Origin: Desulfosudis oleivorans | GTDB lineage: Bacteria > Desulfobacterota > Desulfobacteria > Desulfobacterales > SURF-7 | Direction of reading: 5' to 3' | Assembly (NCBI GenBank): GCA_020723325.1 | Contig: DYJD01000017.1 | Location: 1 to 64,000 of the forward strand | DNA: 64,000 bases | Part shown: positions 34,769 through 50,152 of the stretch, piece after piece | How positions within the stretch are numbered: position 1 is the first letter of the stretch | How the letters are laid out: every line of letters starts with the position of its first letter | Translations under genes and position numbers: made by a program | The notes under the pieces: model-generated | What the model was told of the DNA's origin: nothing | The model's input: the letters and a program-made list of their open reading frames with translations, nothing else | The model's database searches: none

Positions 34769-35149
34769 ATGCAGTTCGACTGGCTTAATTTGGCGATCAT
34801 CGTATGTTTGGTAGCCGGTACAGGTTTTGCGGCAGGCCCCCTTATCATTTCGCTGCTGTTGTCTCCCAAAAGCAAGGGCGGTGATCTGGCTTTGCCCTAT
34901 GAATGCGGCATCGTACCCCACGGCGTGGCCCGGGTGCGCTTCGGCATCAATTATTACTTCTATGCCCTGCTGTTCTTATCCTTCGACGTCGACGTGCTTT
35001 ACCTTTTCCCGGTAGCTTCCGTATATGTTCAAAGCAAGGGCTGGTGGGTCTTTTTGGAATTTCTGATTTTCCTGGGCCCCCTCGGATTGGCGGTAATTTA
35101 TTTTTGGCGGAAGGGAGTTTTCCATTGGCCCCGAAAGATCAAAGTCTGA
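34769..35149 (+). CDS. nuoA: NADH-quinone oxidoreductase subunit A
   Basis: The 126-residue product has three membrane helices and the conserved loop [12 protein letters not shown] before [24 protein letters not shown], as in all NuoA proteins. It contributes to the quinone-site region of complex I in the membrane arm. A GGGGAGGAAG ribosome site precedes the ATG. It overlaps nuoB by 25 bases and opens the operon. Confidence 0.95.
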
Positions 35150-35655
35150 TCCCGGCGGTTTGTGACAGCGATCCCCCGATCCTGGCCATAAAGCCGGTAC
35201 AACAAATCATCGACCTATGCCGTTCCATGTCGTTGTGGCCCATGACCTTCGGTCTGGCCTGCTGCGCCATCGAGATGATGGCCGTCGGCATGGCACGCTT
35301 CGATATCTCCAGATTCGGCGCCGAAGTTTTCCGGCCCTCGCCGCGGCAGTCCGACCTCATGATCGTGGCCGGCACCGTATCCAAAAAGATGGCCCCCGCG
35401 GTTGTACGTCTCTACGAGCAAATGCCGGCCCCCAAATGGGTTCTGGCCCTGGGTAATTGCGCCATCTCCGGCGGTCCCTTCTACTTCCCCGGCCAATACG
35501 CCATCGTGGAAGGCGTGGATCGGATTATTCCGGTGGATGTATATGTTCCCGGTTGCCCGCCCCGCCCCGAGGCCCTTTTGGAAGGCATTTTCACACTTCA
35601 GCAAAAAATCACCGGCAAACGATGGTGGCCGGAACCAAAGGAAGATAAGGCATGA
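35125..35655 (+). CDS. nuoB: NADH-quinone oxidoreductase subunit B
   Basis: The 176-residue product carries the N2 cluster ligands in LACCAIEM (CC pair), the GNCAISG cysteine and [10 protein letters not shown]2 is the last Fe-S cluster and reduces quinone. The only in-frame start consistent with family length is TTG at 35125, 9 bases after AGGGAG and inside nuoA. The longer upstream frame in the same phase is the shadow of nuoA. It overlaps nuoC by four bases. Confidence 0.95.
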
Positions 35656-36149
35656 GCACTACGGGTTCAACAAATCCGCAAGGCTTGGATGGCATCAAGG
35701 CCTGGTGCCGGGTGGACGGAGACTACGCCAAAAGCGGGTCTGCAGCCGTTTTTTTCATCGACGCCGGTGCGTTGCTGCAGGCAACCGCGAGCCTGAAAGC
35801 GGCTGGGTATTATCTGGAGGATGTCTGCGGCGTGGATGTTCGCGAAGGCATCATGCTGGTCTATCATTTTGACCGCTTTGACCGCCCCCACCGCATCACC
35901 TTGCGCATGATCGTGCCCCATGACCGTAAAGAAGCACCCTCCATTGTTTCCATTTTCAGCGGCGCGGACTGGCATGAACGCGAGACCTTTGATTTTTACG
36001 GGGTGGTCTTCACCGGCCACCCGAATTTAAAACCGTTGCTGTTACCGGATGATCTGGGTTTTCACCCGTTACTGAAAGAACAGGAAGACCAACGCAAGTC
36101 GATTCATCAACTATTGCCCATTGAGATGGTGATAGATCATGGCGCTTGA
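35652..36149 (+). CDS. nuoC: NADH-quinone oxidoreductase subunit C
   Basis: The 165-residue product is the 30-kDa hydrophilic subunit: [16 protein letters not shown], the signature [20 protein letters not shown] and the HPLLKEQ tail. It binds NuoD and NuoB in the Q module. It is not fused to NuoD, which lies 3.9 kb further on after NuoG, an unusual split of the C and D pair. Confidence 0.93.
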
Positions 36150-36235: not shown

Positions 36236-36709
36236 ATGAACAAATACTTTATCAACCAGGACAAAAATCGTTGCATCGCATGTTTGAGCTGTGAGGTCTA
36301 CTGCGAAAAAAACAAGAACATCCCTGAAGAAGACCGGGCCAGACTCTGCCAGATCGTGATCGTGGACAAGCAGAAAACTGCCAGCCTGCCCCGGGACGCC
36401 TATATTTATATGGGATGTTTTCATTGTGAAACGCCTTATTGCGTTGCCGCTTGCCCCACCTCGGCCATGAAGAAACGGGACAAGGACGGTATCGTTTATG
36501 TGGAGGCGGACAAATGTGTGGGCTGCAAAGCCTGCATGGTGGCCTGCCCCTGGGGCGCGGTCCAGTGGGATCCAAAAACCAGCAAGGTTCAAAAATGCGA
36601 TTTGTGCAAGGACCGCCTGGATGAAGGCCTGAAACCCGTTTGCGTGACCATCTGCACCACGGGCTGTCTGTCTTTGGGCGAACTTCAACCCAGCGAGAAC
36701 GAAGGGTAA
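36236..36709 (+). CDS. HycB/HydN-type polyferredoxin in the complex I operon
   Basis: The 157-residue product has four 4Fe-4S cysteine sets: CIACLSCEVYC, CFHCETPYCVAACP, CVGCKACMVACP and CDLCKDRLD with CVTICTTGC, as in the electron-transfer subunits of formate hydrogenlyase, carbon monoxide dehydrogenase and DMSO reductase. It has no signal peptide. Standard bacterial complex I has no such subunit. Placed between nuoC and nuoE in a shared operon, it may bring electrons from another donor, such as a ferredoxin or formate enzyme, or bridge to the NuoEFG module (inference). Confidence 0.9.
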   Translation: MNKYFINQDKNRCIACLSCEVYCEKNKNIPEEDRARLCQIVIVDKQKTASLPRDAYIYMGCFHCETPYCVAACPTSAMKKRDKDGIVYVEADKCVGCKACMVACPWGAVQWDPKTSKVQKCDLCKDRLDEGLKPVCVTICTTGCLSLGELQPSENEG

Positions 36710-36778: not shown

Positions 36779-37276
36779 ATGGCTGGAATCGAAAGCAAAT
36801 GCACTGAGCCGGAAATTGATTATAATGTCCTGAACAGCATTATCGTGGACCGTTATAATCAAAACAGGGAAAATCTGATTATGATGATGCAGGCCATCCA
36901 GAAGCAGTACCGTTACCTGCCGATTACGGCCTTGCGTTATCTGTCGGACAAAGTCCAGGTCCCGCTCATCAAAATTTTTGAGATCGCAACGTTTTATGCC
37001 TCCTTCAGCCTGAAACCCAAGGGCAAGAACATCATCAACATCTGCACAGGCACGGCCTGCCATCTCAAAGGCACCGGTAAAATGGTGGAGCATATCACCT
37101 CCAAAGTCGGCATCAAATCCGGCGAGACCACCCCGGACATGCTGCTGACCATGGACAACGTCAACTGTGTGGGAGCATGCGCTGTGGCGCCGGTGATCGT
37201 ATTCAATGAAAAATATTACCCGGAAGCCGACCTGTCTGTGATCAACACCTTACTGGACCAAGCCAAGTCGGAATAG
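36779..37276 (+). CDS. nuoE: NADH-quinone oxidoreductase subunit E
   Basis: The 165-residue product has the thioredoxin-like 2Fe-2S domain with ligands in CTGTACHLKG and NCVGACA, and the N-terminal helical domain with LRYLSDKVQVPL and FYASF. It forms cluster N1a and pairs with NuoF. The start follows AAGGAGGAATG-type sequence upstream with an ATG at 36779. Confidence 0.95.
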   Translation: MAGIESKCTEPEIDYNVLNSIIVDRYNQNRENLIMMMQAIQKQYRYLPITALRYLSDKVQVPLIKIFEIATFYASFSLKPKGKNIINICTGTACHLKGTGKMVEHITSKVGIKSGETTPDMLLTMDNVNCVGACAVAPVIVFNEKYYPEADLSVINTLLDQAKSE

Positions 37277-37288
37277 TGGAGAAACGTT

Positions 37289-39181
37289 ATGCAACAACTT
37301 AAACAAGCGGCGGAATCAAACGTCAATACTCCGAGAATCACAAGTCCCAAGGCGTTGGAAGACTATCGCGCTTCCCTGGCTTCAAAGTACGGTCACGATG
37401 TTCCCACGGTCATCATTTGCTGCGGCACGGGCTGCCGTCCCAGCAACGCCGTGGAAGTGGCCGAGCTGTTGGAAAAAGGATTGGCCGAAGCCGATTTTCA
37501 AGGTAAAATCGTGCCCCATGTCAAAGCCACCGGCTGTCATGGTTTCTGCTCCCGGGGCCCCATCGTGGAACTGGAACCCCAGGGCATTTTCTACCAGAAA
37601 GTCAAACCCAAGGATGTTCCGGAGATCATCGAAAAAACCATCAAAGGCGGCGAGTTGATCAAACATCTGCAGTACAAAGACGCCTCCAAGAAGGTTTTTA
37701 CCCATACCAACGAAATCCCCTTTTATGCCAAACAATCCCGGCTGGTACTCAAGAACATCGGCAAGATCAATCCCTTTGACATTGACGACGCCATTGCCAC
37801 CGGCACTTACGGCGCCCTGGCCAAGGCCCTTTCCAGCATGACCCCCGGTCAGATCATCGAGGAAGTCAAGACCTCCTTTATCAAGGGCCGCGGCGGTGCC
37901 GGTTTTCCCACCGGCATCAAATGGGAGTCCTGCGCCAGTCAGATCGGTAATCGCTACATCATCTGCAATGCCGATGAAGGTGATCCTGGTGCTTTCATGG
38001 ACCGCTCCCTGCTGGAAGGCGATCCCCATCGCATATTAGAAGGTATGGCCATTGCCGCCAAAGCCATCGGCTCCAATCGCGGCTACATTTATGTGCGCCT
38101 GGAATATCCCCTGGCCATCCAGACCCTGACCCAGGCCATTCAGCAGGCGGAAGCCATGGGCCTTTTGGGCGACAATATCATGGGCACCGGCTTCAATTTC
38201 AAGGTCTCCCTGTCCATGGGCGCCGGCGCCTTTGTGTGCGGCGAATCCTCGGCTCTCATGTCCTCCCTGGAAGGCAAGGTCGGCCGGCCTAGACCCAAAT
38301 ACATCCGTTCCGTAGAAAAAGGATTCCGGGATTCTCCTTCCAACCTGAACAATGTGGAGACCTACGCCAATATCCCGGACATCATCCTCAAGGGCGGCGA
38401 ATGGTATAAATCCATCGGCACCAAGGAATCCACCGGCACCAAGGTCTTTTCTCTGACCGGCAATGTTCACAACATCGGTCTGGTGGAAGTACCCATGGGT
38501 GTTCCCCTGCGGGAGATCATTTTCGACATCGGCGGCGGCGTGCCCAAGAAACGCGCCTTTAAGGCGGTTCAGACCGGCGGTCCTTCCGGTGGTTGCATAC
38601 CTGCGCAGCATCTCGATATCCCGGTCAGCTTTGAAAGTCTGGACCAGGTCGGCTCCATCATGGGCTCCGGCGGCATGATCGTCATGGACGAAAACATTTG
38701 TATGGTGGAAGTGGCCCGTTATTTCACCCACTTCCTGGTGGAAGAATCCTGCGGCCAATGCACCCCCTGCCGTGAAGGCCTGATCCGTATGGAGGAAATT
38801 CTGGAACGTATCACCCATGGTGAAGGCCGGGAAGAAGATCCTGATACCCTGGAGGAGATCGGGAAATTCGTCACCAATTTCTCCCTCTGCGGCCTGGGAA
38901 CGTCCGCGGCCAATCCGGTGCTGTCCACCATCCGGCATTTCCGAGAGGAATACGAAACCCATATCCGCCATAAAAAATGCCCGGCCGGTGTTTGCAAGCC
39001 CTTGTACAGTCTGAAGATCGACGAGGAAAAATGCGTGGGCTGCGGCATCTGCAAAAAACGTTGCCCGGTCAACGCCATCACCGGCGATAAAAAGAAACCC
39101 CATGTACTGGAAATCGAGAAATGCATCAAGTGCATGGAATGCCATAAAAACTGTGATTTCGCCGCCGTGATAGTATTGTAA
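37289..39181 (+). CDS. nuoF: NuoF-like subunit with extra N- and C-terminal Fe-S domains
   Basis: The 630-residue product is longer than NuoF of E. coli (about 445). It has an N-terminal thioredoxin-like 2Fe-2S domain (GCRPSNA and CHGFC, about 25-115), the FMN/NADH core (GRGGAGFPTG and CNADEGDPGAF), an SLBB domain, the N3 cluster ESCGQCTPCREG with CGLG and two 4Fe-4S motifs at the C-terminus (CVGCGICKKRCP and CIKCMECHKNC). This arrangement matches HydB/HndC of electron-bifurcating hydrogenases. It oxidises NADH and feeds the wire through the HoxU-like subunit. Confidence 0.93.
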   Translation: MQQLKQAAESNVNTPRITSPKALEDYRASLASKYGHDVPTVIICCGTGCRPSNAVEVAELLEKGLAEADFQGKIVPHVKATGCHGFCSRGPIVELEPQGIFYQKVKPKDVPEIIEKTIKGGELIKHLQYKDASKKVFTHTNEIPFYAKQSRLVLKNIGKINPFDIDDAIATGTYGALAKALSSMTPGQIIEEVKTSFIKGRGGAGFPTGIKWESCASQIGNRYIICNADEGDPGAFMDRSLLEGDPHRILEGMAIAAKAIGSNRGYIYVRLEYPLAIQTLTQAIQQAEAMGLLGDNIMGTGFNFKVSLSMGAGAFVCGESSALMSSLEGKVGRPRPKYIRSVEKGFRDSPSNLNNVETYANIPDIILKGGEWYKSIGTKESTGTKVFSLTGNVHNIGLVEVPMGVPLREIIFDIGGGVPKKRAFKAVQTGGPSGGCIPAQHLDIPVSFESLDQVGSIMGSGGMIVMDENICMVEVARYFTHFLVEESCGQCTPCREGLIRMEEILERITHGEGREEDPDTLEEIGKFVTNFSLCGLGTSAANPVLSTIRHFREEYETHIRHKKCPAGVCKPLYSLKIDEEKCVGCGICKKRCPVNAITGDKKKPHVLEIEKCIKCMECHKNCDFAAVIVL

Positions 39182-39258: not shown

Positions 39259-40038
39259 ATGAAAACACTTAAAATTAAAATCGACGGAAAAGAAGTGACG
39301 GCCAAACCGGATCAAACTATTCTGGAACTGGCCACGGAAAACGGAATTTATATTCCGACCCTTTGTCACAGCCCGGCGTTAGAGCCGGCTGCCATGTGCC
39401 GCCTGTGCATGGTGGAATTATATGAAGGCCGACGCAAGAAATTCGTCACCGCCTGCAACTTCCCCTTGCGCCGGGATGTGGAGATCAAAACCGACACACC
39501 GGACATCCGCCAGGGCCGCAAGCTCATCATTGAGCTGCTCATGGCCCGTTGCGCCGACTCGCCATTGCTGCAAGGCCTTGCCAAGGAATACGGTGCCAAC
39601 GTGCAACGTTTTTCCGACCTGAAAGACGACTGCGTCATGTGCGGTCTGTGCGCCCGGGTATGTGAAAAAGTCGGCGGCAAGACCCTGACCCTGAGCGGTC
39701 GCGGCGTGGAAATCCATGTCAACACGGCTTTCAGCGAGGCTTCCGAGTTCTGTATCGGTTGCGGCTCCTGCGTTCAGATCTGCCCGGTGAATTCCATTGT
39801 CATGGAAGATGTTGCCGGCGAGCGTATTCTGAAGATCCATGGCCGCGAAGCGGCCCGGGTCAAGCTGGTGCATTGTGAAATGTGCAACAAGCATTTCGGC
39901 CCGGTCATCGATCTCACGAAAGTCATGTCCAAATTCGATAAAGGCGCCATTCCGCCGTCCAATGCAAACATTTGTCCGGACTGCGCACGGATTAAACTGG
40001 CCAAAAGGATTGCCGGTCGCTACTATGACACCATCTGA
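39259..40038 (+). CDS. Short NuoG/HoxU-like Fe-S subunit lacking the N5 site
   Basis: The 259-residue product keeps the N-terminal 2Fe-2S domain (LCHSPALEP, CRLC and TACN) and two 4Fe-4S sets (CVMCGLCARVC and CIGCGSCVQICP). A final CEMC and CPDC pair looks like a small zinc or Fe-S knuckle. The His-x3-Cys-x2-Cys-x5-Cys motif that binds cluster N5 is replaced by MARCADSPLLQ, and the molybdopterin-oxidoreductase-like domain of NuoG is absent. It is similar in size to HoxU. Electron transfer to NuoI may therefore need a different route. Confidence 0.85.
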   Translation: MKTLKIKIDGKEVTAKPDQTILELATENGIYIPTLCHSPALEPAAMCRLCMVELYEGRRKKFVTACNFPLRRDVEIKTDTPDIRQGRKLIIELLMARCADSPLLQGLAKEYGANVQRFSDLKDDCVMCGLCARVCEKVGGKTLTLSGRGVEIHVNTAFSEASEFCIGCGSCVQICPVNSIVMEDVAGERILKIHGREAARVKLVHCEMCNKHFGPVIDLTKVMSKFDKGAIPPSNANICPDCARIKLAKRIAGRYYDTI

Positions 40039-41203
40039 TAACACGACGATGCAAAACATTCTGAGCGGCGATTATTATACCAATAATTTCACGCTCAGTC
40101 CCGCTGCCGAAGGTGATACCCTGGTGCTCAACCTGGGTCCCCAGCACCCCTCCACCCACGGTGTTTTGCGGGTGGTGGTGGAACTGGACGGCGAGTATAT
40201 TCTCAAGGCCGAACCGGTGCTGGGATACATCCACCGCATGCATGAAAAAATGGGTGAAGTCAAAACCTATGCCCAGTACCTGCCCAACATGGGCCGGGTG
40301 GATTATCTGCATGCCCTGGCCTGGAACTGGGCCTATGTGGCGGCGGTGGAAAAACTTGCGGGTGTAGCAGTGCCCTTGCGGGCCGAGTACATCCGGGTGA
40401 TCACCTGTGAACTGAACCGTATCTCCTCCCATCTGCTGTGGTGGGGAGCCTATCTTCTGGATCTGGGCGCTTTTACTCCCATCCTCTATGCCTTTGCCGA
40501 TCGCGAAAAGATCATGGATATTCTGCAGATCGTCACCGGCTCGCGCTTGACCTATTGTTATTACCGTTTCGGCGGTGTTTCGGCCGACATCACTCCGGAT
40601 TTCATCGATATGACCCGGGAGTTTGTGGGCTATATGCGAGATCGCCTGCCCATGTATAAAACCTTTGTTACCGAAAACATGATCCTGCGCGGTCGTTGCG
40701 TGGATATCGGTGTACTGTCAAAGGAAATGGCTGTCCGTTACGGCGCCACCGGGCCGGTATTGCGCGGCTCCGGTGTGGCCCATGACACCCGCAAAATCGA
40801 GCCCTATTCCATTTACGACCGTTTTGATTTTGATATTCCCGTGGGCAAAAACGGCGACGCCATGGACCGTTATGATGTGCGCATCGCCGAGATCCAAGAA
40901 AGCCTGCGGATCATTGAGCAAGCCCTGGCTACCCTGCCGGCCGGCGATTATCTGAATCCGGATGTTCCGGAGCGCATCACCCCGCCCAAGGGCGAAGTCT
41001 ACTTTGCGGTGGAAGGCGCCCGAGGGAAAATCGGCATTTATATTGTCAGCGACGGCGGGATAAAACCCTATCGCTTGAAGCTGCGCGCCCCGGGTTTTTC
41101 CAATCTCCATCTGTTTGCCGAGCTGTCCCAGGGAACCATACTAGCCGACGCCGTATCCATTCTCGGTAGTCTGGACCTTGTTATTCCGGAGATCGATCGA
41201 TGA
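40025..41203 (+). CDS. nuoD: NADH-quinone oxidoreductase subunit D
   Basis: From the ATG at 40025, 14 bases inside the nuoG-like gene, the product has 392 residues (a second ATG at 40049 is possible). The family motifs LGPQHPSTHGVLR, ELNRISSHLLWWG, GRCVDIGVLS and GDYLNPDVP are present. NuoD, related to the large subunit of NiFe hydrogenases, forms the quinone pocket with NuoB. No separate ribosome site is visible; translation is likely coupled. Confidence 0.94.
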   Translation: MTPSDNTTMQNILSGDYYTNNFTLSPAAEGDTLVLNLGPQHPSTHGVLRVVVELDGEYILKAEPVLGYIHRMHEKMGEVKTYAQYLPNMGRVDYLHALAWNWAYVAAVEKLAGVAVPLRAEYIRVITCELNRISSHLLWWGAYLLDLGAFTPILYAFADREKIMDILQIVTGSRLTYCYYRFGGVSADITPDFIDMTREFVGYMRDRLPMYKTFVTENMILRGRCVDIGVLSKEMAVRYGATGPVLRGSGVAHDTRKIEPYSIYDRFDFDIPVGKNGDAMDRYDVRIAEIQESLRIIEQALATLPAGDYLNPDVPERITPPKGEVYFAVEGARGKIGIYIVSDGGIKPYRLKLRAPGFSNLHLFAELSQGTILADAVSILGSLDLVIPEIDR

Positions 41204-42189
41204 TGTCCCAATTGTTATCCTATCTATCCCTGCCGCTGGTGCACCTGATTCTATCCCTGGTGGTGATTCTCGCCTTCCTGGGTGTGAACGGCATTGTACT
41301 GATCTACGTGGAACGGAAAGTGGCCGGCTTTATCCAGCGCCGCCCCGGACCTTATGAAGTCGGGCCTTGGGGGCTGCTGCAACCCCTGGCCGACGCCCTA
41401 AAGCTCCTGAGCAAACAACTGGTCACCCCCATGGGTGCCGACAAGATCCTGTTCTGGGCCGCTCCCATCCTGTCCTTTGCACCGGTGGTGATCTGCTTTA
41501 TGCCCATGCCGGTCAGTCCCATGTTCACAGGCATGGAAATGAACCTGGGCCTGATTCTGATTCTGGCCTTCACCAGCTTGAACGTTTTGGCCCTGTGTCT
41601 AGCGGGATGGTCTTCCAACAACAAATACTCCCTTTTGGGCGCGGCCCGGGCCGTATCCCAATCCGTGGCCTATGAAATCCCACTGTTGATCACGGTGCTG
41701 GCCATTGCCTTCCAGACCGGCTCCCTGAACCTTTCGGAAATCGTGGCCTCCCAGACCAAGGGAATTTGGTCCTGGAATATCTTTGTTCAGCCCATAGCCT
41801 TTATCATTTATATCATCGCCGTCACCGCCGAGACCAACCGGGCACCCTTTGACCTGCCGGAAGCGGAAAGCGAACTGACCGCCGGCTTTCACACGGAATA
41901 CGCCGGCATGCATTTCGGCCTGTTCTTCCTGGCGGAATATTCCTACATGATCGTGGTCTGCGCCGTGGCCACTGTTCTGTTCCTGGGCGGCTGGCACGGG
42001 CCTTTCCTGTCCGGACCCTTCTGGTTCATTCTCAAAACCTATGCGCTGATCCTGGTGCTGATGTGGTTCCGCTGGACCTTCCCGCGGGTGCGCTTTGATC
42101 AGCTTTTGAATATATGTTGGAAATGGCTTATCCCGCTTTCTTTGATCAATCTGGTATTAACGGCCCTGTTGGTGAAAATCGTCCGATGA
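41200..42189 (+). CDS. nuoH: NADH-quinone oxidoreductase subunit H
   Basis: The 329-residue product has eight membrane helices with the first quinone-site motif YVERKVAGFIQRRPGP and EIPL, the charged loop AETNRAPFDLPEAESEL and GFHTEY typical of NuoH. It links the quinone pocket to the membrane arm. ATG overlaps the nuoD stop. Confidence 0.95.
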   Translation: MMSQLLSYLSLPLVHLILSLVVILAFLGVNGIVLIYVERKVAGFIQRRPGPYEVGPWGLLQPLADALKLLSKQLVTPMGADKILFWAAPILSFAPVVICFMPMPVSPMFTGMEMNLGLILILAFTSLNVLALCLAGWSSNNKYSLLGAARAVSQSVAYEIPLLITVLAIAFQTGSLNLSEIVASQTKGIWSWNIFVQPIAFIIYIIAVTAETNRAPFDLPEAESELTAGFHTEYAGMHFGLFFLAEYSYMIVVCAVATVLFLGGWHGPFLSGPFWFILKTYALILVLMWFRWTFPRVRFDQLLNICWKWLIPLSLINLVLTALLVKIVR

Positions 42190-42767
42190 AGATAATGACT
42201 AATTACAGCAATGCGATCAAAGGGCTTTTGGGCCTTTTAAAAGGCTTGAAAATCACCGGCGTTGAATTTTTCAAGCCCCAGCTAACCATTCACTATCCGC
42301 GCAAGGAAGTGACCAACCTGGCAACCTATCGGGGGCATATTGACCTGGTGGCCAAGGAGGACGCTCCCCTTGAACCCAAATGCATCATCTGCGGAAAATG
42401 CGCCGAGGTCTGCCCTTCAGCCTGCATCAGCATGGAGATGCATGTCAAAGGCGAGCAATCCTTTGCTAGCCCCGCTGAATGCCGCACCATCACCGTGGGC
42501 CATGGCATCGAGATCCCCTTTTCCGGCCTGCGCCTTCCGCCCGCAGAAGTCATCGAGCGTGAACTGGATTCGTTCAACCTGGACTACAATTACTGCAGCC
42601 TCTGCGGTCTGTGCGTTCAGATCTGCCCAGTGGGCTCCCTGACCTTTTCCAAGGATTCCTATCTGGCCGGCACGGCCCGGAAAAATTTCGAATTCGACCT
42701 GTTGCAACGACTGCGGGAACGCTCCCGCCGTTCTTCCCAAACAACCACCGCACAGGAAAAGAGGTAA
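42186..42767 (+). CDS. nuoI: NADH-quinone oxidoreductase subunit I
   Basis: The 193-residue product has the paired 4Fe-4S motifs of NuoI, CIICGKCAEVCP and CSLCGLCVQICP, ligating N6a and N6b. The region before has the FKPQLTIHYP helix. The ATG at 42186 overlaps the nuoH stop; the earlier frame is its shadow. Confidence 0.95.
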   Translation: MKIMTNYSNAIKGLLGLLKGLKITGVEFFKPQLTIHYPRKEVTNLATYRGHIDLVAKEDAPLEPKCIICGKCAEVCPSACISMEMHVKGEQSFASPAECRTITVGHGIEIPFSGLRLPPAEVIERELDSFNLDYNYCSLCGLCVQICPVGSLTFSKDSYLAGTARKNFEFDLLQRLRERSRRSSQTTTAQEKR

Positions 42768-43294
42768 TGAGCATGATGGAATATCTAGCCTATGCGGCCT
42801 TTGGATTATACCTGTTTCTGATCGTGGCCGGCGGACTTGCGGCGGTTTTATCCAAAAACCTGATCCGTTCCCTGGTGGGCCTGATCATGACCCTTTTCGG
42901 CGTGGCCGGCATGTACTTTTTAATGTCCGCCCCGTTCATCGCCCTGATGCAGATCCTGATCTACGTGGGCGCCGTGAGCGTGTTGATCTTTTTCGCCATT
43001 ATGCTGACCCGCGCTCCCGGCGGAGAATCCGGGATTGAAGGCAGCACTCCCAAGGCCCTGAAACGCGGCCTGCTGGCTTTGGCCACCGCCCTCATGCCCG
43101 CAGTGATTTTGGGCGCCATCATTATCCGGAAGACGCCGGAAACCCTGCCGCTGAAACCGGAAACCGCCCTCACCGTGCTGGGTGAATTTCTCACCGGTCC
43201 CTTTGCCTTGTCCTTTGAACTGATTTCCGTCGTACTGTTTGTTGCCATGGCTGGCGCTGTGCTGCTCGGTTTTGAAAGGAGAAAATCAGAATGA
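42767..43294 (+). CDS. nuoJ: NADH-quinone oxidoreductase subunit J
   Basis: The 175-residue product has five hydrophobic segments and the NuoJ motif LMSAPFIALMQILIYVGAVSVLIFF. The ATG at 42767 overlaps the nuoI stop (TAATG) behind AGGAAAAGAGG. It helps form the first proton path in the membrane arm. Confidence 0.93.
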   Translation: MSMMEYLAYAAFGLYLFLIVAGGLAAVLSKNLIRSLVGLIMTLFGVAGMYFLMSAPFIALMQILIYVGAVSVLIFFAIMLTRAPGGESGIEGSTPKALKRGLLALATALMPAVILGAIIIRKTPETLPLKPETALTVLGEFLTGPFALSFELISVVLFVAMAGAVLLGFERRKSE

Positions 43295-43599
43295 GCCCTT
43301 TGGTTTGGTATCACTTGACCGCCCTGCTCTTGTTGAGCTTTGGTCTGTTCGGGCTTACGTCCAGGAAGACCCTGGTCGGCATGCTCATTTCCGTTGAACT
43401 GATGTTGAACGGCGCCGGCTTGGCCCTGGTGGCCAGCACGCGGCTTACCGCAGCCCTGGACGCCGTCGGCCAACTGGGTGCTTTGCTCGTTATGGGGCTG
43501 GCAGCCGCCGAGGCTACCCTGGTTTTGGCAATCATCCTGGTGGTGTTCAAACGCTTGGGAACCACCGATAGCGAAGCGGTTTCCTTTCTGAGGGGGTAG
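43291..43599 (+). CDS. nuoK: NADH-quinone oxidoreductase subunit K
   Basis: The 102-residue product has three helices with the essential Glu residues in SVELMLNG and AAAEATLVLA. It overlaps nuoJ by four bases. Confidence 0.95.
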   Translation: MSPLVWYHLTALLLLSFGLFGLTSRKTLVGMLISVELMLNGAGLALVASTRLTAALDAVGQLGALLVMGLAAAEATLVLAIILVVFKRLGTTDSEAVSFLRG

Positions 43600-43605
43600 A
43601 AGAAA

Positions 43606-45084
43606 ATGATTGAAAGGGCCGATCTGCTCATACCGATTCTGATCACCGGCTTATCGCCGCTGTTTGTTTATCTTTTCCGTAAAAACATCAACCAGCGGGA
43701 AGGCGCCTCCTTTGCCGCTGGTATTGCCACCTTTGCTTATATACTGACCTTTGTACCCACCGTACTTTCCGGGAAAGTCGCGATTTACACCCTATTTACG
43801 ATTCTGCCGGGCATGGAAGTCAAGTTCTGCATGGACGGCCTGGGAATTATTTTCGCCCTGGTGGCCTCCTTTCTGTGGATCCTGGCCACTTCTTACAACA
43901 TCGGCTACATGCGCTCCCTGGACGAGCATGCCCAGACCCGCTATTACTTCTGTTTTGCGGTGGCCATTTTCGGCGCCGTGGGCGTGGCCATGAGCGCCAA
44001 TATTTTCACCCTTTATCTGTTTTATGAAGTCATCACCGTCTTTACTTACCCCTTGGTGGCCCATCATCAGGATGAAGAAGCTTATCACGGGGCGCGCAAA
44101 TACCTTGTCTACCTCATGGGCACTTCCAAACTTTTCCTGCTGCCGGCCATGGTGCTGACCTATGTGTTGTGCGGCACGTTGGACTTCAATCTCAAGGATA
44201 TCGCCCACGGTATCTTCCCGGCCACGGCCAATCCGGTGCTGGTGCAGATTACTTACGCCCTGTTCGTGGCTGGTCTGGCCAAAGCCGCCATCATGCCTTT
44301 TCATAACTGGCTGCCTTCGGCCATGGTGGCGCCCACGCCGGTTTCCGCCTTGCTGCATGCCGTGGCGGTGGTGAAGGCGGGCGTGTTTTCCGTGTGCCGG
44401 GTGCTGCTGTCCGGCTTTGGTGTGGATGCCATGACCAATCTTTATCTGGGTACACCCACGGCCGTCTTTGCCGGGATCACCATCGTGGTGGCCTCGGTTA
44501 TCGCCCTGACCAAGGATGATCTCAAGGCCCGGCTGGCTTACTCCACGGTCAGTCAGCTTTCCTATGTAGTCCTGGGCGTGACCCTGCTGGCGCCCTTGGC
44601 GGTCACCGGCGGTATTGCCCATATCGCCCACCATGCTTTCAGCAAGATCACCCTGTTCTTCGGCGCCGGCGCCATTTATGTGGCTTCCCATCAGAAAAAA
44701 ATTCCGGCCATGGCTGGTTTGGGCCGGCGCATGCCCTGGACCTTCGGCGCTTTTGCCGTGGCTTCCCTGTCCATGATCGGTGTGCCGCCGGTCTGCGGCT
44801 TTGTGAGCAAATGGTACATGATCAACGGTGCCGTCACCTCCGGCCAGTATGTTTTCATGGGTGTTTTCCTGGCCAGCACCATTCTGAATGCGGCCTATTT
44901 CACGCCCATCATTTACAAAGCGTTTTTTGACGCCCCGGCGCCGGGTGTGGACATCGAACATTATTCCGAAGCCCCCCTATCCATGGTGATTCCCTTGTGC
45001 TTCACCTCGGTCATGTCCGTGGTGCTGGGTCTGTATCCGGATATCTTTATGCGCTTCATCCAAGTGTTCATGGCGGTCAAATAA
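43606..45084 (+). CDS. MrpD/NuoL-like antiporter subunit, first of four
   Basis: The 492-residue product is an antiporter-like subunit with about 14 membrane helices. The TM5 Glu is in YEVITVFTY, the TM7 Lys in AGLAKAAIMPFHNW, the TM8 Lys in VVKAGVF and the TM12 Lys in GFVSKWYMI. It ends without the lateral helix of NuoL, so it resembles MrpD more than standard NuoL. Present between nuoK and three more antiporter-like genes, it probably is a pump module of the same complex. Confidence 0.85.
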   Translation: MIERADLLIPILITGLSPLFVYLFRKNINQREGASFAAGIATFAYILTFVPTVLSGKVAIYTLFTILPGMEVKFCMDGLGIIFALVASFLWILATSYNIGYMRSLDEHAQTRYYFCFAVAIFGAVGVAMSANIFTLYLFYEVITVFTYPLVAHHQDEEAYHGARKYLVYLMGTSKLFLLPAMVLTYVLCGTLDFNLKDIAHGIFPATANPVLVQITYALFVAGLAKAAIMPFHNWLPSAMVAPTPVSALLHAVAVVKAGVFSVCRVLLSGFGVDAMTNLYLGTPTAVFAGITIVVASVIALTKDDLKARLAYSTVSQLSYVVLGVTLLAPLAVTGGIAHIAHHAFSKITLFFGAGAIYVASHQKKIPAMAGLGRRMPWTFGAFAVASLSMIGVPPVCGFVSKWYMINGAVTSGQYVFMGVFLASTILNAAYFTPIIYKAFFDAPAPGVDIEHYSEAPLSMVIPLCFTSVMSVVLGLYPDIFMRFIQVFMAVK

Positions 45085-45096
45085 AGGAAAAAGCCG

Positions 45097-45384
45097 ATGA
45101 GTAGTGAAACCAACAATACAGCAAATGAAATACCGGAAAGCAAGACGGCAAAGATGCTGAAATATTTTTTCTTTGCGGTCCTGATCGCCCTTGTGGGTTT
45201 GAACGTGTTTATCCTGCCCCATCATCCGCATTTCGGCCCGGAAAAATACCCTGGGTTCTGGGCTTTGTTCGGCTGCGGCATAGCCATTGCCCTGGCCAAG
45301 GTGGCCAAAGGCGCTGCCCACACCTTTTTGGGCAAGGATGAGGATTTTTATACCAAGAAAGAAAATACGGGAATAACGTCATGA
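45097..45384 (+). CDS. Small two-helix membrane protein in the complex I operon
   Basis: The 95-residue product has two hydrophobic segments (about 25-45 and 55-75), with HHPHFGPEKYPGFW in the loop and a charged C-terminus with FLGKDEDFYTKK. The histidine-rich loop is notable. It starts behind AAAGGAAAAAGCCG and its stop overlaps the next gene by four bases. No family is known to me; its place between two antiporter-like genes suggests an accessory subunit. Confidence 0.75.
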   Translation: MSSETNNTANEIPESKTAKMLKYFFFAVLIALVGLNVFILPHHPHFGPEKYPGFWALFGCGIAIALAKVAKGAAHTFLGKDEDFYTKKENTGITS

Positions 45385-47147
45385 ACGGTTTCTGGCATCC
45401 ATCGCTCTTCTTCTTCACTTGCGGTCTCCTGGTCTGGCTTCTACCCGGCCGAATCGGTCGCTGGCTACCGCCCATTGCAGCGGCCCTGGCCATTGCCAGT
45501 GTTTTCACCATGCCCGCCGGTGAATTCGCTAAACTGCAATACCTGAATCTGAATCTATTCATGGGCCGGGTGGATTCCCTGTCCCTGGTGTTCGCCAATG
45601 TTTTCGCGGTGCAGGCCTTGATCGGTTTCATCTATGCCCTGCATGTGGAAGACCGCTGGCAGCTCATGGCCGCCTGCATGTACATCACCGGCGCCTTTGG
45701 CTGCGTCTTTGCCGGTGATTACGCCACTCTGTTCATCTTCTGGGAAATGATGAGCGTGGCCTCCACCTTCCTGATCTGGTTGCGGCGCATGCCGGCCTCC
45801 ACCAACGCCGGTATCCGTTATTTCCTGTTCCACATCCTGGGCGGCTTGTTCCTGCTGGCCGGATTGTTGCTGCGCTACAAAGCCACCCAGTCTTTCGCCT
45901 TCCTACCGGTGACCCCGGCGGAAGCCCATTTTTATGACTACCTGATCCTGATCGGTTTCTGCGTGAACGCTGCCGTGATCCCCCTGCATGCCTGGCTGCC
46001 GGATGCTTATCCTGAAGCCACCGTGGCCGGCGCGGTTTTCATGAGCGCTTTCACCACCAAAACCGCGGTATATGTTCTGGCCCGGGCCTTTGCCGGGTTC
46101 GAAATCCTGGCGATCATGGGCACCCTCATGACCCTCTTCGGCGTGTTTTACGCGACCATTGAAAACAATGCCCGTAGGATTCTGTCCTATCACATTGTTT
46201 CCCAGGTGGGCTACATGGTGGCCGGCATCGGGGTGGGCACCAGCATGACCATCAACGGCGCCTGCGCCCATGCCTATGCCCATATCCTCTATAAAGGCCT
46301 GTTGTTCATGGGCGCGGGTACTTTGCTGTACGCGGCCGGCACCGCCAAACTTTCCGAATTGGGCGGCTTGTACAAACGCCTGCCCCTGGTGTTCTTCGGC
46401 TACATGGTGGGGGCTGTGAGCATCTCCGGGTTCCCGCTCTTCAATGGCTTTATCAGCAAGACCATGACCATTGCCGGCACAGCCGAGGCCCATCATACCT
46501 GGCTGGCGGTGGGTATGGAAATCGCCGCGGTGGGTACCTTCCTGTCCGTGGGCATCAAGCTGCCCTATTTCGCCTTCTTCGGCACGCCGGACAAGCAGCA
46601 GCCCTTGAACCGCATTCCGGTCAACATGTATGTGGCCATGGGCATTGCGAGCTTCCTGTGCTTCCTCATCGGTATTCAGCCGCACCTCTTGTACAAGCTG
46701 TTGCCCTTTGAGGTGGATTACACGCCCTACACAGCCTGGCATGTATTGCAATCCATGCTGCTGCTGTGCTTCACCGGTCTCGGGTTCTACATCATGCGCA
46801 ACAAGCTCAAACCCGAAGCCAAACTCAATCTGGATTTCGACTATGTGTACCGCGCGGTGGGCAAGCTGGTGGTGATCATTGCCAAATGGCCCATTGCCGC
46901 TTTTGACAATTTCTGGAGCGAATTTTATGCCAAAGCCGGTTTGGCCGGAATGCTGCTTTCCGCCAGAATCAGCGCCTGGTTCGATAAAGCCGCCATCGAC
47001 GGAGTGGTCGACGGGCTGGCAATCACGGTAAGAAACATCGGACGTTCCGCAACTGTGGTACAGAGCGGCAAACTGCAGGATTATATATCCGCGGCCATGC
47101 TCATCGGCGCAGTTGTGTTTGCGGCTGTTTGGTTTGTCACGAGTTAA
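45381..47147 (+). CDS. nuoL: NuoL-like antiporter subunit with a C-terminal amphipathic arm
   Basis: The 588-residue product keeps the TM5 Glu (FIFWEMMSVAS), the TM8 Lys (AFTTKTAVYV) and TM12 Lys (FISKTMT), but the TM7 lysine position reads FCVNAAVIPLHAW, so Asn replaces Lys. After the last antiporter helices it has a long segment (about 470-570) with IDGVVDGLA and LQDYISAAMLIG that matches the lateral-helix end of bacterial NuoL. That tail makes it the better NuoL of the two. Gene name by position and tail only. Confidence 0.85.
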   Translation: MNGFWHPSLFFFTCGLLVWLLPGRIGRWLPPIAAALAIASVFTMPAGEFAKLQYLNLNLFMGRVDSLSLVFANVFAVQALIGFIYALHVEDRWQLMAACMYITGAFGCVFAGDYATLFIFWEMMSVASTFLIWLRRMPASTNAGIRYFLFHILGGLFLLAGLLLRYKATQSFAFLPVTPAEAHFYDYLILIGFCVNAAVIPLHAWLPDAYPEATVAGAVFMSAFTTKTAVYVLARAFAGFEILAIMGTLMTLFGVFYATIENNARRILSYHIVSQVGYMVAGIGVGTSMTINGACAHAYAHILYKGLLFMGAGTLLYAAGTAKLSELGGLYKRLPLVFFGYMVGAVSISGFPLFNGFISKTMTIAGTAEAHHTWLAVGMEIAAVGTFLSVGIKLPYFAFFGTPDKQQPLNRIPVNMYVAMGIASFLCFLIGIQPHLLYKLLPFEVDYTPYTAWHVLQSMLLLCFTGLGFYIMRNKLKPEAKLNLDFDYVYRAVGKLVVIIAKWPIAAFDNFWSEFYAKAGLAGMLLSARISAWFDKAAIDGVVDGLAITVRNIGRSATVVQSGKLQDYISAAMLIGAVVFAAVWFVTS

Positions 47148-47159
47148 TTTGGAGTCACC

Positions 47160-48737
47160 ATGATGGAAAGTTCCTGGCCGATATTGACGATACTGATTTT
47201 TTTCCCCCTGCTCGCGTGCCTTGCCCTGGTTTTTGTAAAAACCGATCATGGGGCTCGGGTCCTGACTTTGGCTGCCGGCATCATTGAATTGCTCCTGGCG
47301 ATGCCCCTGTTGCATTTTGACCTGGCCTCCGGTGGCTACCAGTTTGTTGAAAAAAAGGACTGGATGCCGGATTGGGGTCTTTCCTATTATCTCGGCATCG
47401 ACGGCATCAGCTTTCTGATGGTGCTGCTCACCGTGGCGCTTTTGCCTTTGTGCGTGCTCTGTTCCTGGACCTATATCAGCAAACGGGTCAAGGAATTTCA
47501 TATCAGCCTGCTGCTCATGGTGGCGGCCTGCGTGGGCGTCTTCAGCGCCCTGGATTTCATCCTGTTCTATATCTTCTGGGAAGCCATGCTGGTGCCCATG
47601 TTCCTGCTCATCGCGGTCTGGGGCGGTCCTGACCGGCGTTACGCCTCCCTAAAATTCTTCCTGTACACCCTGGCCGGCTCCACCCTGCTCTTAGTGGCCA
47701 TCATCGCCCTGTACTGGACGGGCCATACCTTTTCCATTCCGGAACTGGCCCAGAAAAACTATTCCTTCAATTTCCAGATCTGGGTCTTTTTGGCCATGGC
47801 CATTGCCTTTGCCATCAAAGTGCCCATGTTTCCGTTCCATACCTGGTTGCCGGCGGCCCACGTGGAAGCCCCCACGGCCGGCAGCGTGCTCCTGGCCTCG
47901 GTGCTGCTGAAAATGGGCGCCTATGGTTTCCTGCGGCTCTGCCTGCCCCTGACGCCCCAGGCCAGTGTGTATTTCGCCCCCATGATGATTTTCATCTCCA
48001 TTTGTTCCATTCTATACGGCGGCTTTGTGGCCCTGGGACAGAAGGACATGAAAAAACTCATTGCCTATTCGTCCGTGGCCCACATGGGCTTTGTGACCAT
48101 GGGTATCTTTCTTTTCTCCCTGCGGGGCATTGAAGGCGCCCTGATGGTCATGCTGAACCACGGCATTACCACCGGTGGGCTGTTTATGTTGGTGGGCGCC
48201 ATTTATGAGCGCAGCCACAGCCGCGAAATCTCCGAAAACCTGGGTTTGGGCAAATACTTGCCGGCCTATATGTTCTTTTTCGGCCTGTTCGCCCTTTCCT
48301 CCCTGGGTTTTCCCGGCACCAACAGTTTTGTGGGCGAAGCCCTGGTGCTCATCGGCGTTTTTGCCAAGAACGGCTGGGTGGGCGCGGCCATTATCCCCGG
48401 CGTCATGTTGGGGGCGGCTTACATGCTGCGGCTGACCCAGAAATTGGCCTGGGGCGAGCCCCCCAGCGCCAAAGGCAAAAGCTGGAAAGACTTGAATTTC
48501 CGGGAATGGGCTTATTTCACGCCCCTGGCGGTATTTGTGTTCTATATCGGCCTGGCGCCGGGCCTGACCCTGCGGGCCATTGATCCGACCTTGAAGGAAT
48601 TGCTGCATACTTTTTCGGCCAAAACCGCCCGGAAAGCCGTCACCATGGTGATGGAACCGGAAAAAGGCCTGGCCGGACAGAATTTTGAAACCAAACTTCA
48701 ACCAGCAGTGGATGAGCGTATAGGAGAAAGTCGGTGA
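47160..48737 (+). CDS. nuoM: NADH-quinone oxidoreductase subunit M
   Basis: The 525-residue product is a canonical NuoM. TM5 Glu in FWEAMLVPM, TM7 Lys in AFAIKVPMFPFHTWLP, TM8 Lys in VLLKMGAYGF and the NuoM-specific TM12 Glu in FVGEALVLIG are all present. It pumps one proton per cycle and lies between NuoL and NuoN in the membrane arm. Confidence 0.95.
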   Translation: MMESSWPILTILIFFPLLACLALVFVKTDHGARVLTLAAGIIELLLAMPLLHFDLASGGYQFVEKKDWMPDWGLSYYLGIDGISFLMVLLTVALLPLCVLCSWTYISKRVKEFHISLLLMVAACVGVFSALDFILFYIFWEAMLVPMFLLIAVWGGPDRRYASLKFFLYTLAGSTLLLVAIIALYWTGHTFSIPELAQKNYSFNFQIWVFLAMAIAFAIKVPMFPFHTWLPAAHVEAPTAGSVLLASVLLKMGAYGFLRLCLPLTPQASVYFAPMMIFISICSILYGGFVALGQKDMKKLIAYSSVAHMGFVTMGIFLFSLRGIEGALMVMLNHGITTGGLFMLVGAIYERSHSREISENLGLGKYLPAYMFFFGLFALSSLGFPGTNSFVGEALVLIGVFAKNGWVGAAIIPGVMLGAAYMLRLTQKLAWGEPPSAKGKSWKDLNFREWAYFTPLAVFVFYIGLAPGLTLRAIDPTLKELLHTFSAKTARKAVTMVMEPEKGLAGQNFETKLQPAVDERIGESR

Positions 48738-50152
48738 TTCAACAGATTTCACAATTATTGCCCGAATTGTGGCAGATAGCGGTGGTTTTGGTCCTTTTTC
48801 TGGAAACCATTGGCAAACCCGCGAATGATGCTGCCAAACCCAAATGGTTGCCCCTGGCTGCCGCGGCCGGCATCTTTGTCGCCGTCTTCAGCCTGAAGGC
48901 CGACGGCCTGCTTTTTTTCAAAGCGTATCAAGTGGATTCCCTGTCCCAGTTTTTCAAACTGGCTGTGCTGGTGGGTTTTTTCATTGTGGTGCTTAATGCC
49001 GACCCCCTGCCGACGGTGGAATCGGAAAAACGCTCCGATTATTTCCTGTTCTTGGCTTTAAGCGCCCTGGGTCTCATGTTTCTTGCCAGCACCGTGGAAC
49101 TTATCGCCGTGTACATGGCCCTTGAAATATCATCCTACAGCCTGTATGCCTTGATTCCCCTGCGCGGTAAAGACCAGCGGGCCGCTGAGGCCGGGATCAA
49201 ATATGTGCTCTTCGGTGCCGCGGCCACAGCCGTGTCCCTGTACGGCTTGTCTTACATTCTGGCCACCCAGCACAGCACCTATCTGGAAGTTCTGGCAGCC
49301 GCTGATTGGACCTGGACCCATTCGCCCCTGGCCGTCATCGGTCTGACCCTTTTCCTGGCCGGTTTCTTTTACAAACTGGCCTTGTTCCCCTTTCACTTTT
49401 GGTGCCCGGATGTGTATGACGGCACAGGCAACGAAACCGCCGCTTACGTGGCCACCCTGCCCAAACTGGGGGCTGTGGTAATCATGATTCGGCTGGTGGC
49501 CATGCTCAAGCCTGAAAACGGGATCATCACCATCATCGCTGTCCTGGGCGCCTGCTCCATGACCTTCGGCAACCTTTCCGCTCTCATTCAAAAGGACCTC
49601 AAGCGCATGCTGGGTTTTTCCAGCGTATCCCATGCCGGCTATATCATGGTGGGTCTCTCCGCCGTGTCTGCCAAGGGCCTGGCCGCCGCTGGCTATTACA
49701 GCCTGGTCTATGTGCTGATGAACCTGGCCTGTTTCTGGGTCATCTGCCGCCTGGCCACCGACGGCCGCAACATCACTTTGGATGACCTGAACGGCCTGTA
49801 CAAACGCGCGCCCGGCTTGGCATTCATCATGGCCGTGGGCGCCTTTGCCCTGGTGGGCCTGCCCCCCACCGCCGGCTTCATGGGCAAGTTCTTCCTCTTG
49901 ACCTCGGCCTGGAACCGCGGCCACGACTGGCTGGTGATCATCGCCTGCCTGAACACCGCCATTTCCATTTACTACTATCTGAATATCGTGCGCCACGCTT
50001 ATACTGCCGAAGCCGAAGAACCCCTGCCCGCCCCCAAACCCGGCAGCGCCCTCTGGGGCGGAGTTCTGGCCACCCTGCTGCTGATCCTGGGCGCCTTTCC
50101 CGGGCCGGTATTCCACTATGCCGAGGTGGCCGGGAAATTGCTCATACCCTGA
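48734..50152 (+). CDS. nuoN: NADH-quinone oxidoreductase subunit N
   Basis: The 472-residue product starts at GTG overlapping the nuoM stop. TM5 Glu in MALEISSYSL, TM7 Lys in FFYKLALFPFHFWCPDV, TM8 Lys in LPKLGAV and TM12 Lys in GFMGKFFLL are present. It is the last gene of the operon, and the stop is followed by an intrinsic terminator. Confidence 0.95.
   Translation: MIQQISQLLPELWQIAVVLVLFLETIGKPANDAAKPKWLPLAAAAGIFVAVFSLKADGLLFFKAYQVDSLSQFFKLAVLVGFFIVVLNADPLPTVESEKRSDYFLFLALSALGLMFLASTVELIAVYMALEISSYSLYALIPLRGKDQRAAEAGIKYVLFGAAATAVSLYGLSYILATQHSTYLEVLAAADWTWTHSPLAVIGLTLFLAGFFYKLALFPFHFWCPDVYDGTGNETAAYVATLPKLGAVVIMIRLVAMLKPENGIITIIAVLGACSMTFGNLSALIQKDLKRMLGFSSVSHAGYIMVGLSAVSAKGLAAAGYYSLVYVLMNLACFWVICRLATDGRNITLDDLNGLYKRAPGLAFIMAVGAFALVGLPPTAGFMGKFFLLTSAWNRGHDWLVIIACLNTAISIYYYLNIVRHAYTAEAEEPLPAPKPGSALWGGVLATLLLILGAFPGPVFHYAEVAGKLLIP

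Follow-up and report, generated by a model that had tools for sequence, protein, structure and literature searches.

A NuoG-like subunit without the N5 ligands, encoded with a bifurcating-type NuoF and a DmsB/HycB-like ferredoxin subunit in a complex I operon

The nuo operon and its short G subunit

The stretch of DNA analyzed here, 64,000 nucleotides long and referred to below as the window, encodes on its forward strand a nuo operon of 17 genes in the order A-B-C-Fd-E-F-G-D-H-I-J-K-X1-X2-X3-M-N. NuoA (34769–35149), NuoC (35652–36149), NuoH (41200–42189), NuoJ (42764–43294), and NuoK (43291–43599) were assigned from operon position and conservation. The conserved part of NuoB with the N2 cysteines (35218–35655) was recognized by cysteine conservation, NuoD (40049–41203) by its conservation and the retained GPQHPSTHG motif, and NuoI (42186–42767) by the ligands for N6a and N6b, whose eight Cys residues are present in 12 of 12 sequences. 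The membrane arm continues with X1 (43606–45084), an MrpD-like antiporter subunit that matches PRK08375 over the cut-off; X2 (45097–45384), a protein of 95 amino acids for which domain and family searches returned no family over the cut-off; X3 (45381–47147), an antiporter-like subunit that matches PRK12668 over the cut-off and whose alignment with the NuoL model reaches the C-terminus; and NuoM (47160–48737) and NuoN (48734–50152), both assigned by family search. Positions 43606–48737 (X1, X2, X3, and NuoM) and 48734–50152 (NuoN) thereby hold four antiporter-like subunits rather than the usual three, with the MrpD-like X1 and X3, flanking X2, in the place of NuoL. The same X1-X2-X3-M-N arm is present in many relatives that lack E-F-G, and a complex I with four antiporters has been described before (Chadwick 2018, cited in PMC7419157).

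Between nuoC and nuoD lie the four genes of an Fd-E-F-G cassette, the last of which (39259–40038) encodes a short NuoG-like protein of 259 amino acids that was characterized by motif, domain, fold, and copy comparisons. Searched with Pfam at E 0.1, it matched Fer2_4 and 4Fe-4S ferredoxin domains, and neither the N5 domain (NADH-G_4Fe-4S_3) nor a molybdopterin domain was found; against TIGR01973, the model for canonical NuoG, it scores 75 bits where the cut-off is 470. The Fer2_4 match covers the [2Fe-2S] site at the N1b (A1) position (Cys36, 47, 50, and 66; 39364–39456), and two CxxCxxCxxxC sites, corresponding to A2 (N4) and A4, follow at Cys125–135 and Cys165–175 (39631–39783). A pair of CxxC motifs at the C-terminus (Cys206, 209, 239, and 242; 39874–39984) is likely a metal site; it is conserved, is also present in 9mqx_A, and aligns to HycF. 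At the position of the N5 (A3) ligands the translation reads MARCADSPLLQ (residues 95–105; 39541–39573), with no His-Cys3 motif by reading, pattern scan, or alignment. All 17 cysteines of the protein, those of the [2Fe-2S] and CxxCxxCxxxC sites among them, are conserved in 15 of the 15 copies found, the window counted, so the gene is under constraint.

The pattern H-x3-C-x2-C-x5-C was found in none of these 15 copies (the window by reading and the 14 other loci by pattern), and all 12 length-filtered G proteins from other nuo loci were positive, as were nine canonical NuoG proteins from the same genomes (see below). In a profile alignment, the HydA-type subunits 8a6t_A and 7t2r_A carry the His-Cys3 loop where the stretch in window G is shorter. 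A sequence-only reading of this region had claimed that the subunit lacks both the N5 ligands and a molybdopterin domain and had named alignment with the HydA family as a check; both claims are borne out by this alignment, by the scan with its controls, and by the length and domain content of the protein. The second CxxCxxCxxxC site, the C-terminal CxxC pair, and the bifurcating type of NuoF described below go beyond that reading. In total, 141 G matches were scanned with the pattern H.{3}C.{2}C.{5}C, and use was made of the 14 matches of the tight clade, the 12 from nuo loci, and 51 others with a long F nearby, 46 of which were N5-negative and five positive (L012, two in L013, L014, and L057). 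Because the pattern misses HoxU-like proteins with NHxCxxC spacing (e.g., at L023 and L030), the 23 matches scored as negative with a short F nearby are no evidence of N5 absence.

The best PDB sequence match of window G was 9mqx_A (E 1.4e-43, 34% identity), from an entry described as an electron-bifurcating tungstopyranopterin aldehyde oxidoreductase, and the same chain was the best Foldseek match (TM 0.82/0.86) of the predicted structure (mean pLDDT 86.7). This comparison used the G model only, the predicted structure of Fd (pLDDT 41.5) being set aside. In the stretch aligned to window G, 9mqx_A likewise lacks N5. As described in excerpts of Schut et al. (2022, PMC9304861), Type 2 Bfu enzymes have A subunits without clusters A3 and A5 in which electrons travel via A4, and A subunits without N5 are a normal class with characterized members. 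Alignment with HydA and with the A subunit of HydABCSL suggests that A3 corresponds to N5. By cysteines and motifs, A1, A2, and A4 are present and A3 and A5 absent in 15 of 15 copies, which is the Type 2 BfuA inventory; A5 was judged absent because no [Fe-S] motif of a known type remains beyond the C-terminal CxxC pair. From its sequence, window G is categorized as a class match to Type 2 BfuA and not as a decayed NuoG. Cys98, in the RC of the MARCADSPLLQ stretch, is invariant in 15 of 15 copies and present in many other Type 2 A subunits; it was considered as a substitute ligand and rejected, and is not required for the Type 2 class, because some members read ARA, ARS, or similar.

The other genes of the cassette are of matching type. 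NuoE (36779–37276) is a [2Fe-2S] thioredoxin-like protein by domain and family searches, equivalent to BfuC. NuoF (37289–39181, 630 amino acids), assigned from domains, PDB matches, and cysteine conservation, consists of an N-terminal [2Fe-2S] domain, an FMN/NADH domain, the N3 site, and a C-terminal domain with two [4Fe-4S] sites. It matches bifurcating HydB/BfuB subunits over nearly its full length (8a6t_B, E 8e-231; 9mqx_B, E 1.5e-223), and 24 of its cysteines recur in all 13 sequences compared, that of the window among them. NuoF thus has the BfuB domain set and NuoE is a thioredoxin-like BfuC, which together make up a BfuBC core; excerpts of Schut et al. (PMC9304861) give clusters B2–B5 as absent from non-bifurcating homologues and BfuB as the ferredoxin-binding subunit of Bfu enzymes. 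On these sequence features the window NuoF is categorized as the bifurcating HydB/BfuB type.

The first gene of the cassette (36236–36709) encodes a DmsB/HycB-like ferredoxin subunit (Fd) with four [4Fe-4S] motifs, identified by domain, family, and profile matches (Fer4_11 in Pfam; DmsB/NrfC/HycB family) and proposed below as a bridge from A4 to NuoI. Every copy aligned (12 complete and one truncated at the end of a contig) retains the 16 cluster cysteines; for L117 and L119 the count used the copy that lies between nuoC and nuoE. At these two loci a second Fd paralogue (43–49% identity) is encoded downstream of nuoN, at orthologous places (L117:19153–19500 and L119:19074–19493). Window Fd and 9mqx_E belong to the same broad family (E 1.3e-13 by phmmer and 1e-21 by profile); DMSO-reductase-type and NrfC subunits match window Fd better than 9mqx_E does, and HycB of formate hydrogenlyase (PDB 7z0s) is matched as well.

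Occurrence and origin of the Fd-E-F-G cassette

Relatives of window G were identified in 291 genomes of the order and 395 genomes of the phylum, both of which are samples of larger groups. The order sample yielded at least 12 places in 11 genomes (56–65% identity, nearly full length) and the phylum sample added copies in G377 and G405, giving at least 15 copies in 14 genomes among the matches listed, the window included. All 15 lie in nuo operons. Wherever the contig reaches, the 17-gene order is that of the window, and it is complete in eight fetched loci besides the window; the cassette lies between nuoC and nuoD in all 12 copies for which both ends are seen (the window counted), across five family labels. 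A scan of a collection of named genomes (73 relatives, exact short patterns) returned no close full-length copy of window G, the best match being 46% over residues 4–186 in a Desulfonema limicola metagenome-assembled genome.

Other relatives of window G (P0001) are either fusion proteins of about 1090 amino acids or short A subunits, and no nuo operon was found in the 46 regions fetched around them (L123–L130, L159–L176, and L217–L236; some on short contigs). The fusion, encoded at L124 (9252–12515) and in many other members of the order beside E and F genes, joins an N5-less BfuA-like part to a pyridine nucleotide-disulfide oxidoreductase domain and further ferredoxin domains. A gene of the Fd family stands directly before E in seven of these 46 regions (L130, L219–L223, and L225). 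The other 39, several of which are short or cut by contig ends, have no Fd directly before E, so an N5-less G is not always accompanied by an Fd. At L220 (2588–9217) and L225 (4633–7315), a molybdopterin oxidoreductase and a DmsB-like protein are encoded together with an E-F-G cassette; the Pfam run for this pair covered L220, where Fd follows the molybdopterin oxidoreductase gene. These two clusters are candidate molybdoenzyme-Bfu systems.

A search with NuoD gave a match in at least 226 of 297 sampled genomes, and 40 nuo regions were read for comparison, picked by hand from the ranked NuoD list (nearest first, then spread) rather than at random. Both nuoC and nuoD are visible in 51 nuo loci. 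E-F-G lies between them in 11, each of which also has Fd there, and Fd is in that place in none of the remaining 40. Anywhere in those 40 loci, Fd was found only at L177 and L179, directly after nuoI in clusters without E-F-G, and matches to E, F, or G elsewhere in the stretch occur at L195, L201, L204, L212, and L213. The L177 (8908–13662, minus strand) and L179 (6272–11012, plus strand) loci are small nuoA-B-C-D-H-I-Fd clusters whose fetched stretches gave no match to J, K, or an antiporter, and at L177 nuoA is flanked by a divergently oriented molybdopterin oxidoreductase gene; by gene content, they could encode an antiporter-less quinone complex resembling formate hydrogenlyase.

In a tree built from NuoD, NuoB, and NuoH of 62 loci, in which 13 of the 15 copies were usable, the N5-less clade is monophyletic (support 0.999) and nests within complexes without E-F-G (node support 1.0), most of which have the same X1-X2-X3-M-N arm. 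In the stretch read, E-F-G is missing from the nearest relatives of the complex, and so is Fd from all but two of them; the sister placement of L177 and L179 is weakly supported (0.309). In the F tree the tight clade groups with L159 (0.842, a modest value) and in the Fd tree with the cassette Fds (0.825, likewise modest), and since F and Fd have different nearest relatives, the cassette may be a mosaic. Taken together, the gene orders and trees suggest that a complex I without an NADH module at this place probably acquired the Fd-E-F-G cassette by insertion between nuoC and nuoD, and that the N5 gap probably arose through the insertion of a ready-made N5-less module and not by loss in place. 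As one clade and one insertion event are involved, the association of Fd with N5 absence in nuo operons is without independent replicates. The sequence-only reading had described a gap in the standard wire; N5 is indeed absent, but not as a unique gap in an NADH-only complex I.

In addition to this complex, nine of the 14 genomes (that of the window among them) have a NuoG that scores over the TIGR01973 cut-off. These canonical proteins have the N5 motif in nine of nine cases and a CxxCxxCxxxC site in none. At their loci the match to NuoF stops at residue 564–573 of 630, before the C-terminal cluster domain, and no match to Fd was found in the nine stretches fetched (L241 and L242 being cut by contig ends). 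DsrA is present over the cut-off in all 14 genomes, and this one gene, dsrA, points to probable sulfate-reducing hosts. RnfC scores over the cut-off in two of the 14 (G174 and G190), sub-threshold RnfC matches of more than 100 bits occur in G153, G127, and G045, and no RnfC-like match above 50 bits was found in nine, again including the window's own genome. Because only these nine are without such a match, a role in place of Rnf would not be general, and we suggest a ferredoxin- and NADH-coupled pump replacing Rnf for some of these bacteria only.

A possible route for electrons and its alternatives

We consider it reasonably probable that G is the A subunit of an inserted Bfu-type (HydABC-like) input head on a proton-pumping, menaquinone-reducing complex I, with Fd as the bridge between the two. 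The missing N5, the A4 ligands, the BfuB type of NuoF, the conserved operon, and the tree position are read from the sequences, and from them we infer the subunit contacts, direction, confurcation, quinone type, and stoichiometry of the complex. NADH and reduced ferredoxin would be oxidized together (confurcated) at the NuoE-NuoF core, electrons would pass from N3 to N1b and N4 (B1-A1-A2), and they would exit G via the second [4Fe-4S] cluster, A4, in place of N5. From there they would cross the four clusters of the DmsB/HycB-like Fd to NuoI (N6a and N6b) and continue through N2 to menaquinone, powering the membrane arm with its four antiporter-like subunits. A path from A4 through Fd to N6a would thereby replace the path from N4 through N5 to N6a.

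The role given to Fd draws on two kinds of evidence. Its family occurs before E, beside Type 2 A-subunit genes, and after nuoI, and therefore on either side of the proposed bridge; and in 9mqx, according to excerpts of PMC13328260, the cluster wires formed by WorSL terminate at the WorABC plug. It is because of this adjacency to both Type 2 A genes and nuoI, together with the WorSL parallel, that the path through Fd is proposed, and Fd is probably the bridge from A4 to NuoI. A HycB-like protein spanning the gap was among the ideas of the sequence-only reading, and the gene-neighbor contexts of Fd make it the best-supported route, the contacts of Fd with G and with NuoI being predicted from these contexts. 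The proposal in its most specific form, an NADH-plus-ferredoxin:menaquinone pump that uses A4 and a plug-in DmsB-type wire, carries an inserted confurcating head, substitutes for Rnf in some of these bacteria, and stands beside a normal NADH complex I in most, is put forward as tentative.

An alternative that we regard as unlikely is that E-F-G and Fd make up a soluble bifurcating enzyme of their own, or dock only transiently, and that the membrane complex takes ferredoxin electrons at NuoI. In close relatives the genes of the membrane and Q modules are retained although the stretch read shows neither E-F-G nor Fd, so that the core is probably able to function by itself; E-F-G cassettes with Fd also occur outside nuo operons, and a Desulfurivibrio nuo cluster without NuoEFG is on record (PMC12142623, in excerpt). 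What argues for a joint complex is the placement of the cassette between nuoC and nuoD in 12 of 12 fully seen copies with five family labels, and the finding that the window operon includes no gene for a molybdoenzyme or other third-substrate enzyme. The same finding, as regards a molybdoenzyme, bears on a second alternative, in which A4 contacts NuoI directly and Fd serves as a lateral entry point for a different donor, such as a cytoplasmic molybdoenzyme. Such a role would fit the Fd that accompanies a molybdopterin oxidoreductase gene at L220 and at L177, as well as the 39 of 46 non-nuo regions without Fd directly before E; among the 40 loci without E-F-G between nuoC and nuoD, however, Fd was found only in L177 and L179, after nuoI, and we judge this alternative quite improbable. 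That N5 decayed in a non-functional module, or that the gap is spanned by the clusters at the C-terminus of NuoF, as the sequence-only reading had also offered, is very hard to credit: the missing ligands themselves are all that favors decay, which was rejected because every other cysteine is retained in 15 of 15 copies and because N5-less A subunits are a functional class with characterized members (excerpts of PMC9304861; 9mqx), and the NuoF sites are an unlikely bridge because in bifurcating relatives they are part of the conserved core of BfuB, the subunit said to bind ferredoxin.

If the cassette does form a confurcating head on complex I, the input end of complex I would be exchangeable down to its cluster wire, with N5 bypassed by a borrowed electron-transfer subunit. 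The operon would then show, in nature, the addition of a confurcating module to a pump that already existed and had no NADH module. This would bear on how NADH-linked complex I evolved, and the operon would offer RnfC-negative, Dsr-containing bacteria a route to couple the oxidation of ferredoxin and NADH to menaquinone and a proton gradient. A direct comparison is possible in the nine genomes that have this complex alongside an N5-containing NuoG.

Comparison with known systems

In formate hydrogenlyase, a HycB-type cluster protein occurs together with a NuoI-like subunit, the donor is a molybdoenzyme, and the acceptor is a hydrogenase. Window Fd matches HycB and the C-terminal part of G matches HycF of that enzyme (PDB 7z0s), whereas its molybdoenzyme donor and hydrogenase acceptor set it apart from the window complex. 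The nearest relatives by NuoD, NuoB, and NuoH are complexes I of the same phylum (L178, L180, and others), which share the order of nuoA-D, H-K, X1-X3, M, and N but show neither E-F-G nor Fd in the stretch read. Mbh-Bfu of Dehalococcoides, as outlined in excerpts of PMC9304861, likewise combines a Type 2 A subunit with a membrane complex predicted to pump protons, but one with a NiFe-hydrogenase and not linked to quinone. Wor-Bfu (WorABCSL, PDB 9mqx, Acetomicrobium mobile) shares the N5-less Type 2 A subunit and the BfuBC core, and a polyferredoxin subunit feeds the module there, which may be compared with window Fd; it differs in being an aldehyde oxidoreductase without complex I or a proton pump.

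Closest in overall plan is Nuo-Bfu, a predicted 14-subunit confurcating complex I found, for example, in Geobacter sulfurreducens and categorized as Type 3 with A3 (Schut et al. 2022, PMC9304861, in excerpt). In both Nuo-Bfu and the window, a BfuABC module replaces the NADH module inside the nuo gene cluster, and both are predicted to oxidize NADH and ferredoxin together and to reduce menaquinone. As far as the excerpts of that paper go, the published complex contains A3, whereas the window complex is without it and so falls outside the Type 3 definition; the 14 published subunits come with no mention of an extra ferredoxin subunit, whereas the window adds the DmsB-like Fd; and three antiporter-like subunits stand against four in the window. 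In the literature searched, the term Nuo-Bfu appeared only in PMC9304861. Two of the nuo loci, L201 and L204, fit Type 3 Nuo-Bfu, with a long NuoF upstream of nuoA and a G that has N5 and two ferredoxin sites; neither locus gave a match to Fd. Close relatives of the L201 G (63–65% identity) occur in at least three more of the 297 genomes (G447, the source of L204, G471, and G494). Weaker matches at E 1e-90 extend to at least 148 of the 297, the L201 genome counted, and by their length and in-frame TGA these look like formate dehydrogenases.

The sequence-only reading had raised a possible new wiring of a respiratory complex. This is partly supported, by the absence of A3 and the added Fd, but a confurcating complex I of the Nuo-Bfu kind had already been predicted (PMC9304861, in excerpt); judged by sequence, the window complex departs from it in the lack of A3, the added Fd, and the membrane arm. 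On these comparisons, the head would work like Wor-Bfu and the base like complex I.
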